From an uncultured Sphingomonadaceae bacterium (GTDB lineage: Bacteria > Pseudomonadota > Alphaproteobacteria > Sphingomonadales > Sphingomonadaceae), in NCBI GenBank assembly GCA_947488625.1, contig CANKZR010000002.1, positions 248,001 through 312,000 on the forward strand: DNA of 64,000 nucleotides, written 5' to 3'. The stretch's first letter is position 1, and every line of letters starts with the position of its first letter. Below, piece after piece: positions 12,378-20,689 of the stretch. The notes beneath the pieces are model-generated. The model did no database searches, had not been told where the DNA came from, and saw only the letters and a list, made by a program, of their open reading frames with translations. Position numbers and translations under genes: made by a program.

Positions 12378-13574
12378 TCAGCGCCAGCCGTTCTGCAGGA
12401 ACTCCAGTGCGCATCCTGCCAGGAAGGCGCTGCCGAGCGGCATGACGCTTTCGTCGAGAACCATGCGGCTGGAATGCAGGCCGCAGCAGCCCTTCCAGTC
12501 CACCCCTTCGGCCGCTGCGCCCAGGAAGAACATCGCACCCGGCACCTTTTCCAGAACGTAGGAGAAATCTTCCGCGCCCATTGTGGGTGCTGGGCGGTCG
12601 GCCCAGGGGGTATCTCCGCCCAGCGCCAACGCCACTTCCTTGCCCAGCGATACGGCGCGGGCATCGTTGATGGTGGCAGGGAAACCGTCGATGAAACGGA
12701 CTTCTGCCTCGCAGCCGTGGGCGCGGGCCACGTTTTCGGCGACGCGCGCGATCGTTTCGCGGATGACCTTGCGTCTTTCCGGCGACAATGTGCGGATCGT
12801 GCCCATCATCTCCACGCTGTCGGGAATGATGTTGTGCGCGGAACCAGCCTCGATCTTCGTGATGGAAACCACCGCGGCTTCCGCTGCGTCGAAGCGGCGC
12901 GTCATCATGGTTTGCAGGGCCAGCACGATTTCCGCGCTTACAGGGATCGGGTCTATCGTGTCGTAGGGCATGGAGGCATGTCCGCCATTGCCCCGCACGG
13001 TGATTTCCAGTTGGTCGGCAGATGCCATCATCGGTCCGCCGCGACCTTCCAGACGGCCATGCGGCGCGTTGGGCCAGACGTGGAGGGCAAAGGCCGCATC
13101 GGGCAGCGGATCGATCAGCCCGTCGTCCAGCATATGGCGCGCGCCATGATAGCCTTCCTCCCCCGGCTGGAACATGAAGAGCACCTCGCCCTTCAAGCTA
13201 TCCTGACGCGCAGCCAGCACGCGTGCGGCGCCTGCCAGCATGGCGGTGTGGGCGTCGTGGCCACAGGCGTGCATCCGGCCGGGGATCTGCGAGGCGAAGT
13301 CCACTCCCGAATGCTCTTCCATCGGCAAGGCGTCCATATCGCCTCGCAGCAGCACCCGGCGCCCGGCATGGGCGCCTTTCAGCACTGCCACCGCACCCGT
13401 GCACGATGGCCCCTCGCGCCATTCCAGCGGCAGGTCGGCCAGCGCTTCCTTCACCTTGGCCAGCGTTTTCGGGGTATCGAGGCCTAGTTCAGGTTCGGCA
13501 TGGATGGCGCGGCGCAGGGCGGTAATTGCCCCTTCGTGCGAACGGGCTGCGTCCAGTAATTCCTCGGTCAGCAT
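12378..13574 (-). CDS. M20 family amidohydrolase/metallopeptidase (hippurate-hydrolase-like)
   Basis: RGDMDALPMEE, MHACGHDAHTAMLAG, FQPGEEGYHGARHML, APTMGAEDFSYVLEKVPGAMFFLG. Confidence 0.95.
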   Translation of the reverse strand: MLTEELLDAARSHEGAITALRRAIHAEPELGLDTPKTLAKVKEALADLPLEWREGPSCTGAVAVLKGAHAGRRVLLRGDMDALPMEEHSGVDFASQIPGRMHACGHDAHTAMLAGAARVLAARQDSLKGEVLFMFQPGEEGYHGARHMLDDGLIDPLPDAAFALHVWPNAPHGRLEGRGGPMMASADQLEITVRGNGGHASMPYDTIDPIPVSAEIVLALQTMMTRRFDAAEAAVVSITKIEAGSAHNIIPDSVEMMGTIRTLSPERRKVIRETIARVAENVARAHGCEAEVRFIDGFPATINDARAVSLGKEVALALGGDTPWADRPAPTMGAEDFSYVLEKVPGAMFFLGAAAEGVDWKGCCGLHSSRMVLDESVMPLGSAFLAGCALEFLQNGWR

Positions 13575-13805
13575 GACAGTCCCCGAATATAGAGGTGGCG
13601 AGGGTGCTCCCCGCGAAGATTGAAAAAGGACTTATGCCACCCATCTTGCCGTTCTGCACCACAGAAACCGACATCACGCGTGACGCGTCGGTAACAATGC
13701 CCGCGTCACTTGTTGCAGATCGGCACCTGTCGGCGCGGCGGATTGGCGCACTTGTTGCAAAAACCGTAGCATTTGGCGCGACCCCATGTTTAAGGCGAGC
13801 AGGTT

Positions 13806-14858
13806 ATGGACGGAAGCATTCATCTCTTCGACCGCTTGCCGCAGGTCGACGCGGTTCCGCGCGCAGAGAACGATGTCGCCATCTCGTCCGTTCGCACCCG
13901 GCCGCTGGTGGGTCTGATCCGCAACGGGCGCAGTCATCGTAACGAAGGGCACGCCAACGGTCGCAGCGCAGGGCGTAACAGCGCCGACGAACTGGGTGAG
14001 AACGTGCTGCTGGCAACGCCGCACCGCCGCAGCGAGTTGCCCGGTGTGCTAACCGATTTTGCAGAAAAGCGCGTGGATTATATCGCGATCGACGGCGGCG
14101 ATGGTACGGTGCGCGACGTGCTGACCTGCGGGGCCGGCATTTTCGGTGACAGCTGGCCGATGTTGATCGTCCTTCCCGGCGGCAAGACCAATGCGCTGGC
14201 GCTGGACCTTGGCATCCCCACGGACTGGTCTTTCAACGATGCGCTGGCCGCGGTGCAACGTGGGGGACTGGTACGCCGTCAGCCGCTGGTAATAACGCAG
14301 CGCGACGACGATCGTGCGCAGGTGCGCGGCTTCGTGATGGGGGCAGGGGTATTCAATCAGGCCATCACCCTGGGGCAGCGCAGTCACGATCTCGGTGCGT
14401 TCAATCACGCCGTCGTCGCGATCACCGCAGTCTGGAGCATGGCGCAGGCGATGCTGGGCATGTCCGGCAACAAGTGGCGACAGGGTACGGCCATGCGCAT
14501 CCAGCGGTCCAGCGGCGTCGAGCTAGACCACTGCGGCGGCCTGCCTGCAGATGAGCGTTACCTGATGTTCGCATCGACCTTGCAGACATATCCCGCCGGG
14601 CTCGATCCGTTTCGCGAGGTCGAGGAACCGCTGCAAGTCGCGGTGATGGACAATGCGCGCCGACGCATGTTGCTCAGCCTTCCGTCGATCTTTCGCGGGA
14701 AGAGCACGGCGGCCACGCGGCGCTGCGGTTTTCATGTCTTTGGCGATAGCGCCGTAGACCTGGATATCGGTGACCCTTTCATCCTTGATGGCGAGGCTTT
14801 CCCTGCCGGGCAATATCGCCTGTCCGCCGGGCCCAGGCTGCGCTTCGTCGTACCGTGA
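13806..14858 (+). CDS. Diacylglycerol/lipid kinase catalytic-domain protein
   Basis: YIAIDGGDGTVRDVLTCG glycine-rich kinase motif and IVLPGGKTNALALDLG. Confidence 0.83.
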   Translation: MDGSIHLFDRLPQVDAVPRAENDVAISSVRTRPLVGLIRNGRSHRNEGHANGRSAGRNSADELGENVLLATPHRRSELPGVLTDFAEKRVDYIAIDGGDGTVRDVLTCGAGIFGDSWPMLIVLPGGKTNALALDLGIPTDWSFNDALAAVQRGGLVRRQPLVITQRDDDRAQVRGFVMGAGVFNQAITLGQRSHDLGAFNHAVVAITAVWSMAQAMLGMSGNKWRQGTAMRIQRSSGVELDHCGGLPADERYLMFASTLQTYPAGLDPFREVEEPLQVAVMDNARRRMLLSLPSIFRGKSTAATRRCGFHVFGDSAVDLDIGDPFILDGEAFPAGQYRLSAGPRLRFVVP

Positions 14859-14868
14859 AGGTGGTATC

Positions 14869-15762
14869 GTGAAGTTGCGCTTGCGCGTCGGCGCGGCGCT
14901 TTCACGCGAGGTGGATCCAGCTGTTTCTGCATTCGCTGCAAAGCTGGCGCAGGACGCGGCCACCCTTGGGGTGCTGTTCTATGGATCGAACCTGCGCACT
15001 GGGTTGCGCGAGGGCGTGCTCGATTTCTACGTGCTGACCGCAGGCGAGCCCGAACCCGGCCTGTGGCCCACCGTTTCCTACCGCGAATGGGAATACGAGG
15101 GCGAAACCCTGCGCGCAAAGATCGCCACGATGACGCTGGAGAAATTCGCGCAGGCTGCCCGCGGAGAGACGATCGACACCACCATATGGGCGCGGTTCGT
15201 CCAGCCCAGTGCGCTTGTATGGTGCCGCGACGAAACCGCTCGCCTGTATATCAGCACAGCTATCGAGTCTGCCGCCATCACGGCCGCGAGGCTTGCCGTT
15301 GCAGCGGGACCGGAAAGCGGTGTGGAGGAGGATTTCTGGCGTGCCTTGTTCCGCAAGACCTATCGCGCCGAATTCCGGGTTGAGAAGCCGGGGCGGGAGG
15401 ATTCCATTCTTTCGCTCAATGCCGAACACTTCTCCGGACTGCTGCCCGATGCGCTTTCCGCCGGCAGCATCCCCTTTGGCCGCGATGGCGACGTACTGAC
15501 GCCGCGTATTACTGTCGCGCAGCGCGACGAGGTGCTCTCATGGTGGCGGAAACGTCGCCGGATGGGCAAGCCGCTGAATATCGCGCGGCTGGCACGGGCC
15601 ACGCGCACCTTCGACGGCGCGGCGCGCTACGCGGCATGGAAGGTGGAACGGCACACCGGCGAGGCGATCGAGGTTACGCCGTTCCGCGAGAAACACCCGA
15701 TCCTTTCCGCTCCTGCGGTCGCCTTCAAGCTGTGGCGGGCAAGGAAGAAGCGAACCGATTAG
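14869..15762 (+). CDS. Tam41/Mmp37-like nucleotidyltransferase (putative CDP-diacylglycerol synthase)
   Basis: GTG start 10 nt after the lipid kinase. VLFYGSNLRTGLREGVLDFYVL nucleotidyltransferase-like motif, AKIATMTLEKFAQAARG...IWARFVQPSALVW and C-terminal NIARLARATRTFDGAARYAAWKVERHTG parallel Tam41 architecture from memory. Confidence 0.6.
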   Translation: MKLRLRVGAALSREVDPAVSAFAAKLAQDAATLGVLFYGSNLRTGLREGVLDFYVLTAGEPEPGLWPTVSYREWEYEGETLRAKIATMTLEKFAQAARGETIDTTIWARFVQPSALVWCRDETARLYISTAIESAAITAARLAVAAGPESGVEEDFWRALFRKTYRAEFRVEKPGREDSILSLNAEHFSGLLPDALSAGSIPFGRDGDVLTPRITVAQRDEVLSWWRKRRRMGKPLNIARLARATRTFDGAARYAAWKVERHTGEAIEVTPFREKHPILSAPAVAFKLWRARKKRTD

Positions 15763-15765
15763 GCC

Positions 15766-16251
15766 TTACATGTAGCGCATGCGGATCGACATCGGCAGCA
15801 CTTCGCGGCCGATAGTGAAGCGCGTCTTGTCGATGCTTGGCTTGCCAAGATTGAAGATGTTGATGCTGGGGTTGTTCGACATGCCGCCGCCATCGCGGGT
15901 AATGTCTGTGCGACCGTTGCCGTTCTTGTCATGACGGATGGCGATGGCGTAATTACCAGGGCGCGGCACCGGCATGCAGACCATCATTGTGCCGCTGCGC
16001 GCAGGCAGTTCGATCCGGTTGATCCACCTGCCGCTTTCCAGCCAGTCGGCACTGGTGCCGGGGTAGAGCTGGAAACGCATGGTGCCGCCTGAACCTTCGA
16101 TATTGGTCACCTGCATCCAGACCGCCGGGCCGCTGCCCTGACACGGTGCAACCGAATGCCTTATCTCGTTACGGAATTGCGCGTTGGCAGGAGCACTCAG
16201 CCCCACGGCGATGGCCGCCACTGCGAAAAGGCGAAGTATTTTCTTCGTCAT
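15766..16251 (-). CDS. DUF2141 domain-containing exported protein (copy 2)
   Basis: Signal peptide MTKKILRLFAVAAIAVGLSAPANA; PGNYAIAIRHDKNGNGRTDITRDGGGMSNNPSI. Confidence 0.85.
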   Translation of the reverse strand: MTKKILRLFAVAAIAVGLSAPANAQFRNEIRHSVAPCQGSGPAVWMQVTNIEGSGGTMRFQLYPGTSADWLESGRWINRIELPARSGTMMVCMPVPRPGNYAIAIRHDKNGNGRTDITRDGGGMSNNPSINIFNLGKPSIDKTRFTIGREVLPMSIRMRYM

Positions 16252-16489
16252 AAAAATTCTGATCCCCTGGGCCAGTAACGTTATCGCGGGCACCGCAAAT
16301 GGTCGCCATACAGACGATTTCCACTGGCAATAGCTGTTATTTGCCCGATTTTTGCCATGTACGCAGTGAACCGGGGCTGAAGAAGGCGGCAATCGCGCGC
16401 TAAGGGCGCTGTTACGCATGGACTGGTGGAAAACGCGTCTGATGCTGCTTGTTACCCGATTCGCGTCCCTCTAACGCGGGAAGTTGATT

Positions 16490-17155
16490 ATGGCCCATCC
16501 TCTTATCTCACCCTCCATCCTGTCCGCAGACTTCGCGAAGCTGGGAGAAGAAGTGCGCGCCATCGACGCCGCCGGTTGCGACTGGGTGCATGTCGATGTG
16601 ATGGACGGGCATTACGTGCCCAATCTCACCATCGGTCCTGCGGTGGTGAAGGCACTTCGCCCGCATTCGAAAAAAACGTTCGACGTGCACCTGATGGTGT
16701 CGCCGGTGGACATGTGGATAGACGAATTCGCTGATGCCGGCGCCGATATCATCACCGTGCATCCCGAGGCGGGCGCCCATGTTCACCGCAGCGTGCAGGC
16801 AATCCGGGCTGCGGGCTGCAAGGCTGGCATATCGCTGAACCCTGCAACGCCTGCCAAGATGCTGGATTACCTCCTCGAGGAGATCGACCTGGTGCTGATC
16901 ATGAGCGTGAACCCCGGCTTTGGCGGGCAAAGCTTCATCCATTCGCAACTGCGCAAGATCGAGGCAGTGCGCAAGGCGATCGACAAGGGCGGTCACGATG
17001 TGCTGATCGAGGTTGATGGTGGGGTGAACGCGGACACCGCCCGGTTGTGCGTGGATGCCGGAGCGGACGTGCTGGTGGCAGGCTCGGCCACGTTCAAGGG
17101 CGGGCCCGATTGCTATGCCGACAATATCGCGATGCTTCGGGGAGAGGCCCGGTGA
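16490..17155 (+). CDS. rpe: Ribulose-phosphate 3-epimerase
   Basis: [56 protein letters not shown]. Confidence 0.98.
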
Positions 17156-19056
17156 ACGCGCATTCGGCCGAGCTTGCTGGCAAGGCCCGGCGCCAGGGCG
17201 AAGACAAGGTTGCGAACATCGACGGCGGAACGAACCGCCAACTGGCAATCCCCCTGGGTGACGAAGCGCGCGAAGACCTGATTGCCCCTGCTCCTGGCAA
17301 CGAACCCGTAGCCGAACCGGTGGTAGAAGACGCCAAGGATCTCGCCCCGGACCGGTCGCTGGCGATTTCCGATTTTGCGCCACCTTCCGCTTCGGCCTCG
17401 GAACGGTTTATGCGGCTTGCTTTCAGCATGGGCGTTTCTCACAGCACTATCGTGGCGCCCTTCCGCAAGCCGTTGCGACCACGGCTGCAGGCCACGGTGA
17501 CAACCCCGCTGGAGGGGGATCGTGCTGCTGGAATGGCGCTGCGAGCCGGTCACTTTTACGTCTATGGCGTCAAGGCGCCGTTTGCACAGGTCGACATGGG
17601 GCCGCTGGGCAATCTCAGCCCACCGTTCGAGCGGGTCGTGCAGGGCTTTACGTGGCTGCGCGATCTTGCAACGTCGGGGACCCCGCCGCAGTGCCGCCAG
17701 GTGGGGGAGCGTCTGCTCGTATCCTGGTTCGATGCCAATCCCGCTATCGGCAAGGGGCCTGCGTGGAAGGTCGAGAATGTCGGGCTTCGCCTGCTCGCCT
17801 GGCTGGTGCATGCACCGCTGCTGATTTCCGGCAATGACGCTGCTTTGCGCCAACGTGTGCTTACCGCCATGTCGGACACCGCGCGATGGCTGGATCGCAA
17901 TGTCGGCAAGGCAGATGATCGGCTGGGCGAAGTTGCCGGCTGGTGCGCGATTACCGCGGCGGGACTGCTGCTGCCCGAAGGCAAGCCGCGCCGCCTGTTT
18001 GGCGAGGCCGGACTGGCCCGTGCACTGGGTGAGGCTGTGGGCGAGGATGGCGGACTGCTGTCGCGCAGCCCGGATGCGCAGATGCAGGCGATTGCCAATC
18101 TGATCGACCTGCGCGCCTGTTACGAGGCGGCCGGGCACGAACCGCCCAGGCTGCTGGGCACCATGCTGCACATGCTGGTCCCTCCGCTGCTGGCGCTGAC
18201 CCATGGCGACGGCGGACTGGGCAACTGGCAGGGCGGCGGCGCGACCAAAGCCTCCCGCCTGTCGCGCCTTGTCGGGGCCAGCGGTGTGCGCACCCGCCCC
18301 CTGAAGGAGCCGAGCGGCTGGGGCTACCAGCGCGTCACCGCGCGCAAGGCCACGCTTCTGATGGATGGTTCTCCGCCGCCGCTAGGCCACCATGCACGGC
18401 ACGGCTGCGCTTCCACCCTTGCGCTGGAATTCAGTCACGCAGAGCACCGACTGATCGTGAATTGCGGCGGCGCTGCGCTGGCGGGTGGACAGGTTCCGGT
18501 GCGGATCGAGCAGGGGCTGCGCGCCACGGCGGCGCATTCCACACTTGTGTTGGGCGATGCCAATTCCACCGCCGTGCTGATTGATGGCAAGCTGGGCTCC
18601 GGCGTTGGCGAAGTGCAGATCGACACGCGGCAGGTGAAGCTGGAAAACGGCTCCGCCACCCGGATCGAGGCGAGTCACGATGGCTACGCCTCGCGGTTCG
18701 GGTTGATACACCGCCGTATCCTGATGCTGCGCGAGGACGGGCAGGAACTGCGCGGGGAGGACGTGCTCGTTCCTTCCGGCCGCAAGGGGAAGCGCGGCAA
18801 GGTGCCGTTTGCTATCCGGTTCCACCTTGGCCGCCATGTCGAGACCACGCTGACCGATAGCGGCAAGGGCGCCAGCCTGATGTTGCCCGATGGCAGTCTG
18901 TGGCAATTCGCGACCGGCGCGGAAAGCCTGGAACTGGAAGAGAGCCTGTGGGTCGATGGCAATGGCAAGCCGCATCCGGTACAGCAATTGGTGATAGAGG
19001 GATTCGCCTCGCGCGGCGGCGGCAATTTTGCCTGGCTGCTCAAACGCATGGGATAG
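17152..19056 (+). CDS. Heparinase II/III family protein
   Basis: GTG start overlapping rpe stop; C-terminal [27 protein letters not shown]...[10 protein letters not shown] pattern of bacterial heparinase II/III-like proteins. Confidence 0.88.
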
Positions 19057-19066
19057 ATTACACGGC

Positions 19067-20689
19067 ATGACGGACGTTGCGATCAAACGGGCACTGCTTT
19101 CGGTGTCCGACAAGGCGGGTATTGTCGAATTGGGCGGCAAGCTGGCGAAAGCCGGGGTAGAGCTGGTGTCCACAGGCGGCACGGCCCGCGCATTGCGTGA
19201 CGCCGGGCTGGATGTGCTGGATGTATCCGAAATTACCGGCTTTCCCGAGATGATGGATGGCCGCGTGAAGACGCTGCATCCCATGGTGCACGGCGGGCTG
19301 CTGGCCGTGCGCGACAACGCCGATCACACCGCCGCGATGGACACGCATGACATCGGTGGAATCGATTTGCTCGTGGTGAACCTCTACCCGTTCGAGGAGA
19401 CAGTGGCGCGCGGGGCCAGTCGAGAGGAAATCGTCGAGAATATCGACATCGGCGGCCCGGCCATGGTTCGCTCCGCCAGCAAGAACCACCAGTTCGTCAC
19501 CATCGTTACCGATCCTGCGGACTACGCCGAACTGACCGAGGAACTGGCCGAACACGACGGCGCCACGACGCAAGCGTTCCGCACACGCATGGCGGCCAAG
19601 GCCTTCGCCAAGACGGCAAGCTACGACGCGGCAATCGCCAACTGGTTCGCCTTTGGCGATGCGTTCACCAACCCGCTGGGTTCTGAAGCCCTGAAGGCAA
19701 CACCGTTCGTCGACAAGCTGCCGCTGGCTTTCACCAAGAAGGACGAGCTGCGTTACGGCGAGAATCCGCACCAGGCCGCCGCTGTCTATCTGCCGCAAAG
19801 CACCAGCGTGCAGGGCATTCCGCAGGCCGAGCAGGTGCAGGGCAAGGAGCTGTCCTACAACAACTACAACGATGCCGATGCCGCGCTGGAACTGGTTGCC
19901 GAATTTGCCGGCGGCGATCCCGCCGTGGTGATCGTGAAACACGCCAATCCGTGCGGCGTGGCGCAATCCTCGACCTTGCTTGAGGCGTGGCAAAAGGCGC
20001 TGGCATGCGATAGCGTATCGGCCTTTGGCGGCATCGTGGCGGTGAACCGACCCTTGGACGGACAGACTGCGAAGGCGATCTGCAAGATCTTTACCGAAGT
20101 TGTGATTGCCCCCGGTGCCGATGATGCAGCGCGCGAGGCTTTTGCTGCGAAAAAGAACCTGCGCCTGCTGCTGATCGATGATTTTCCGCAGGCCGACCGT
20201 AGCGGCTTTCAGATGAAGACCATTGCAGGCGGGATGCTGTTGCAGTCGCGCGATAACGGTGTGATCGGTGCCGAGGACCTGAAGGTTGTCACCAAGCGTC
20301 AACCCGGAGAGCAGGAAATTGCCGATGCCCTGTTCGCGTGGAAAGTGGCCAAGCACGTAAAGTCGAACGCCATCGTCTATGCCAAGGACGGCGCGACGGC
20401 CGGTATCGGCGCTGGCCAGATGAATCGTCGCGATTCCTCTCGTATCGCTGCAGTGCGCGCGGCGGAGGCTGCCGAGGCGGCGGGCTGGGATGCCCCGCGC
20501 ACGCAAGGCAGCGCCGTTGCGTCAGACGCGTTCTTCCCCTTCGCCGACGGGTTGTTGAGCGCGGTGGAAGCAGGCGCGACGATGGTGATCCAGCCCGGCG
20601 GTTCCATGCGCGACGACGAGGTAATTGCCGCCGCCGACGAGGCGGGCATTGCCATGGTGTTCACCGGGATGCGCCATTTCCGTCATTGA
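19067..20689 (+). CDS. purH: Bifunctional AICAR formyltransferase / IMP cyclohydrolase
   Basis: [74 protein letters not shown]. Confidence 0.98.

Follow-up and report, generated by a model that had tools for sequence, protein, structure and literature searches.

Lipids of the ceramide phosphoglycerate (CPG) type underlie the survival of Caulobacter without LPS and determine its polymyxin sensitivity. In Caulobacter, the gene order opens with CC_1165-CC_1162 for ceramide synthesis. It continues with CC_1161, the ceramide kinase gene CC_1160, then CC_1159 and CC_1158, which have a CDP-alcohol transferase and a phosphoesterase domain respectively, and ends with CC_1156 and CC_1155 (LptF2 and LptG2; PMC11324152). 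CPG was shown to require both CC_1161 and CC_1160, and orthologues have been stated for S. wittichii and Z. mobilis (PMC11324152). The ceramide kinase activity of CpgB, the CC_1160 product, has been proven, and its GGDG motif is common to CpgB and human CERK (PMC10331486). CC_1161, known as CpgC, was reported to carry a domain suggesting a CDP-diacylglycerol (CDP-DAG) synthase, and an NDP-ceramide step has already been proposed for it (PMC11324152). Papers of 2025 and 2026 describe the mechanism of CpgC in the step from ceramide-1-phosphate to CPG as unidentified (PMC12275187; PMC13228409). In the library of papers searched, none on CDP-ceramide in bacteria came up. A second point of reference is Tam41, whose amphipathic, positively charged helix at the C-terminus attaches it to the membrane (PMC7018664). 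Tam41 is already known from bacteria, and that of Firmicutes produces CDP-DAG (Kimura 2022, as cited in PMC11646218).

The locus discussed here belongs to a sphingomonad genome from the Aurantiacibacter/Erythrobacter group. The window is the whole stretch of 64,000 nucleotides that was analysed, and the coordinates of its relevant features are collected in Table 1. A preliminary description of this DNA had pointed to a diacylglycerol kinase-like gene (gene 1) followed 10 nt later by a 297-aa open reading frame (gene 2). Coordinates and translations confirm this arrangement and the motifs quoted for it, with IDGGDGTVRD and LPGGKTNALA both present in gene 1 and YGSNLRTGLREGVLDFYVL, AKIATMTLEKFAQ and IWARFVQPSALVW all found in the translation of gene 2. 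The pair is most likely of an already known kind, cpgB-cpgC, rather than a CDP-DAG bypass. As a cpgB-cpgC module (probability about 0.68), it would supply ceramide-1-phosphate through the kinase and CDP-ceramide through gene 2.

Table 1. Location of the two genes and of their conserved elements in the window.
Feature	Position	Strand	Remarks
Gene 1: DAGK_cat-family lipid kinase, probable ceramide kinase (cpgB-type)	13806..14858	+	350 aa
GGDG nucleotide-binding motif, gene 1 residues 97-100	14094..14105	+	invariant in homologues
Gene 2: predicted Tam41-fold nucleotidyltransferase, cpgC/CC_1161-type, proposed CTP:ceramide-1-phosphate cytidylyltransferase	14869..15762	+	297 aa
Nucleotidyltransferase-like motif YGSNLRTG....LDFY, gene 2 residues 38-54	14980..15030	+	Y38, G39, D52 invariant
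Invariant Lys84, gene 2	15118..15120	+	K in 151/151; profile-aligned with Lys of Tam41 'KYG'
WARFVQP motif, gene 2 residues 107-113	15187..15207	+	aligned with AGRFQKP of Tam41 (6ig2)
YRAEFRVE motif, gene 2 residues 165-172	15361..15384	+	aligned with Y.GDIRM segment of Tam41 (6ig2)
Basic C-terminal helical region, gene 2 residues 213-297, candidate membrane-binding part	15505..15759	+	charge, model helices

The assignment of gene 1 to the diacylglycerol kinase-like proteins was upheld by its Pfam match, DAGK_cat (PF00781), at E=1.8e-10 and above the curated cut-off. Among PDB entries, the profile of its family matched lipid kinases of the YegS/DgkB type (E ~1e-8). Residues G97, G98, D99 and G100 showed no variation among 29 homologues, and a search of gene 1 for the CxxxCxxC of eukaryotic CERK did not find it. 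Compared with the kinase of a CPG-type cluster (L163), gene 1 is 29% identical (E=2e-23). Gene 1 is a probable ceramide kinase of the cpgB type. Published cpgB primer sequences had no exact match in the loci examined, which represent two families, neither of them Caulobacteraceae.

Gene 2 begins with a GTG codon at 14869, a start that is backed by relatives; the longer frame opening at 14770 was rejected as a mechanical extension. That gene 2 is a chance frame was ruled out by its invariant residues and by homologues in 51 of 61 related genomes, each with a single copy except for split matches. Identity ranges from 63-83% inside the genus to about 30-40% across the order, and the closest named copy is that of Aurantiacibacter rhizosphaerae (83%). 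At the level of the class, gene 2 was found in 26 of 193 alphaproteobacterial genomes. One match from the same genus (L016; G022:C2:409453-410331) contains an in-frame TAG, possibly a truncation or a shifted end.

Twelve positions of gene 2 are invariant in 151 homologues: Y38, G39, D52, P67, K84, W107, R109, Q112, P113, E168, R170 and E172. S40 is kept in 150 of the 151. The GS...D motif emphasized in the preliminary description is thus retained in relatives, together with a lysine, K84, that the family profile aligns with the K of IIKYGVTS in 6ig2. The basic C-terminus noted there proved to be a helical region, with a net charge of +14 over the last 85 residues; the two parts that precede it have -1 and -4. 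Its helices span residues 216-247, 251-263 and 277-296 in the AlphaFold model. The highest hydrophobic moment of the protein lies outside this region, where an amphipathic helix is not clearly seen. By analogy with Tam41, the charge of the C-terminus fits a membrane-binding part.

A Tam41-like nature had been claimed for gene 2, and this claim stood for the fold, the motif and the synteny and failed for the PF09139 profile. The gene 2 protein alone had no match in Pfam, including PF09139, or in NCBIfam, PHROGs or PDB sequences, and PF09139 returned no member above cut-off in either 398 proteobacterial or 193 alphaproteobacterial genomes. Gene 2 lies outside formal PF09139 membership, and its matches were obtained solely through family profiles and structure. 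A family profile (A3) searched against PDB sequences ranked Tam41 6ig2/6ig4 first (E 0.003). The AlphaFold model of gene 2 (pLDDT 91, pTM 0.87; 29 relatives used) gave Tam41 as its five best Foldseek matches in the PDB (6ig4, 6ig2 and 7ecd; E 1.6e-9 to 1e-7; TM 0.48-0.58). The next group consisted of ANT adenylyltransferases (E 8e-6, TM ~0.3). The structural comparison with Tam41 suggested in the preliminary description was in agreement with a second model, built for a relative that belongs to a different family and has 32% identity in an alignment. Below E 1e-3, this model matched nothing in the PDB but Tam41, in four chains at E 3e-8 to 2e-7. The best Pfam match of the same relative is PF09139 (5.5e-5), at 23.1 bits vs a cut-off of 24. 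The structural alignments are long and their rmsd is high (4.7-7.6 A), so the likeness is one of architecture and not of close superposition. On these models, gene 2 almost certainly has a Tam41-like fold; fold similarity does not fix its nucleotide and acceptor.

A generic ANT- or MNT-like nucleotidyltransferase, with a function unrelated to Tam41, would also carry the GS...D core motif, which is common to many nucleotidyltransferases, and small enzymes of this kind do occur among the weak matches. Such an identity for gene 2 is highly improbable. In two independent models, the E values of Tam41 are several orders of magnitude better than those of all other nucleotidyltransferases, and its TM is about 0.5 vs 0.3. 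A viral structure library yielded generic nucleotidyltransferases only, again at TM ~0.3, and the pairing of gene 2 with a lipid kinase is conserved.

This pairing was followed across Sphingomonadales, where synteny with the kinase was seen throughout, in agreement with what the preliminary description led one to expect. A gene 1 homologue lies immediately upstream of gene 2 in 50 of 50 loci (the kinase of L027 is cut by a contig end), and a 4-nt stop-start overlap of the two genes is usual in the genus. In other alphaproteobacterial families, kinase and gene 2 occur together in most of 20 loci. In the window, the pair is flanked upstream of gene 1 by an M20 peptidase gene and downstream of gene 2 by a DUF2141 gene, both on the opposite strand. 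By sequence, the genes beyond DUF2141 resemble rpe, a gene of heparinase type and purH. The order from 12378 to 20689 is M20 peptidase, kinase, gene 2, DUF2141, rpe-like, heparinase-like and purH-like. Of 80 Erythrobacteraceae/Novosphingobium loci (L082-L161), 54-73 share this neighbourhood, which does not include spt (serine palmitoyltransferase).

The gene neighbourhood in other lineages points to the lipid on which the pair acts. Twenty other Sphingomonadales carrying gene 2 were compared: in 18, spt adjoins the pair, and in the remaining two the locus is split over contigs. The spt gene is convergent to gene 2 at a distance of 5-142 bp in 16 genomes and 1.2-1.4 kb in two. The genes of L163 are arranged as AMP-ligase, SDR, ACP and spt; gene 2, gene 1 and CDP-alcohol transferase; phosphoesterase, LptF and LptG. 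Since this equals the order from CC_1165 to CC_1155, gene 2 corresponds in position to CC_1161, as gene 1 does to CC_1160. The spt-adjoining gene of L163 is 34% identical to gene 2 (E=1e-38). Gene order makes gene 2 most likely an orthologue of CC_1161. Because of the adjacency of spt in other Sphingomonadales and the gene-order match to cpgB-cpgC, the lipid is most likely ceramide-1-phosphate. The pair very likely acts in a phosphosphingolipid pathway.

These observations also bear on the reading first proposed, in which gene 1 would act as a diacylglycerol kinase and gene 2 as a CTP:phosphatidate cytidylyltransferase of the Tam41 type, forming a salvage CDP-DAG route beside CdsA. The Tam41 fold of gene 2, the DAGK_cat family of the kinase and the CDP-DAG made by the Firmicutes Tam41 (Kimura 2022, as cited in PMC11646218) are all in its favour, as is the lack of an adjacent spt in the lineage of the window. 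Against it are the linkage to spt and to CPG-type clusters elsewhere in the same family, the sister position of the window clade to cluster-borne copies (99), the missing PF09139-level similarity and the ordinary, separate CdsA gene carried by the genome itself. The presence of CdsA also led to the rejection of gene 2 as its replacement. The salvage route was accordingly given up as unlikely in favour of a sphingolipid headgroup route, which the preliminary description had offered as one option and which the spt linkage and the cpgB-cpgC gene order favour.

The lineage of the window departs from this arrangement. None of 80 loci has spt next to the pair, and in the genome of the window ACP-spt is located elsewhere, at about 236 kb from the pair. 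In the gene 2 tree, a quick tree with several long branches, the family of the window forms one long-stemmed clade (100). This clade groups with L168 and L180 (99), whose copies of gene 2 sit in CPG-type clusters, rather than with the other Sphingomonadales. This grouping may reflect transfer or replacement of gene 2. The position of spt away from the pair and the long stem of the window clade leave room for a changed substrate. At E <1e-4, the genome of the window has no more than two CDP-alcohol phosphotransferase domains; thus no CpgA-like gene is evident, and an enzyme using CDP-ceramide is not apparent there.

The CPG-type clusters include a further nucleotidyltransferase, MobA-like and in the position of CC_1152/CC_1153. 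The genome of the window has a homologous, MobA/CofC-like copy (G000:C1:1171271-1172032; L198:7220-8047, minus strand). Of 51 genomes with a completeness of 90% or more, 44 carry gene 2 as well as the cluster nucleotidyltransferase, seven carry neither, and none carries one without the other (Fisher 9e-9, relatedness ignored). An spt-like gene is kept in seven nearly complete genomes where gene 2 and the cluster nucleotidyltransferase are missing (G020, G021, G023, G044, G049, G054 and G059). These seven relatives are natural comparisons for lipid analysis.

The constant company of the cluster nucleotidyltransferase would suit a phosphosphingolipid pathway with another chemistry, in which gene 2 uses a different NTP or joins ceramide-1-phosphate directly to (activated) glycerate. 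The mechanism called unidentified for CpgC (PMC12275187; PMC13228409) leaves space for such a reaction, and so does the genome of the window, in which no CpgA-like CDP-alcohol transferase was seen. We regard another chemistry as improbable, given that the Tam41-type architecture, the conserved lysine and the basic C-terminus fit CTP:lipid-phosphate cytidylyl transfer, and that direct attachment of glycerate was considered energetically not very favourable by the authors of PMC11324152. Gene 2 is probably a CDP-ceramide synthase, an enzyme that would form CDP-ceramide from the nucleotide CTP and the acceptor ceramide-1-phosphate.

The cpgB-cpgC reading can be put as a series of steps. Gene 1 would convert ceramide and ATP to ceramide-1-phosphate. 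Gene 2, a peripheral enzyme of Tam41 fold held at the membrane by its basic C-terminal helices, would transfer CMP from CTP onto ceramide-1-phosphate, yielding CDP-ceramide and pyrophosphate. A further enzyme would then displace the CMP of CDP-ceramide by glycerate or phosphoglycerate to give ceramide phosphoglycerate. A broader proposal can be made tentatively, at a little under even odds. CpgC-type proteins, including gene 2, would be peripheral Tam41-fold CDP-ceramide synthases, and the Erythrobacteraceae/Novosphingobium clade, off the spt locus and with no CpgA-like gene, would direct the activated ceramide to a different headgroup.

What is new here is the Tam41 fold, the conservation of the active site (151 members), the linkage to spt and the co-occurrence with the cluster nucleotidyltransferase. 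Once CpgC-type proteins are assigned the fold of Tam41 and an active site that is invariant, the gap in the step from ceramide-1-phosphate to CPG narrows to one specific assay. Together, fold and linkage bring this pathway step within reach of a direct test. If the proposal is true, the Tam41 fold would be shown to act on a second lipid class.

Four known systems can be set beside the pair. CdsA (PF01148) would share with gene 2 the proposed chemistry, CTP:lipid-phosphate cytidylyl transfer, but belongs to an unrelated integral membrane family. Compared with Tam41/Mmp37 (PF09139; 6ig2, 6ig4 and the bacterial 7ecd), gene 2 has only 10-15% identity, falls below the Pfam cut-off and belongs to a family found near ceramide genes rather than phosphatidate genes. 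The two are alike in the GS...D nucleotidyltransferase domain, the invariant lysine, the R..QP segment, the second domain and a basic C-terminus with helices, and Tam41 is the best structural match of gene 2. Unlike CpgB of Caulobacter crescentus (CC_1160, CCNA_01218), the kinase of the window lies about 236 kb from spt and belongs to a divergent clade, with about 23% identity to other Sphingomonadales copies. It resembles CpgB in its DAGK_cat fold, in having GGDG without CxxxCxxC and in adjoining a cpgC-type gene, and the copies of its relatives lie in a ceramide gene neighbourhood. As for CpgC (CC_1161, CCNA_01219), the window differs in that the kinase is adjacent to gene 2 yet spt is far away. 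It is gene order that likens gene 2 to CpgC: in the relatives that bear the cluster, the gene takes the same place beside the kinase and spt.
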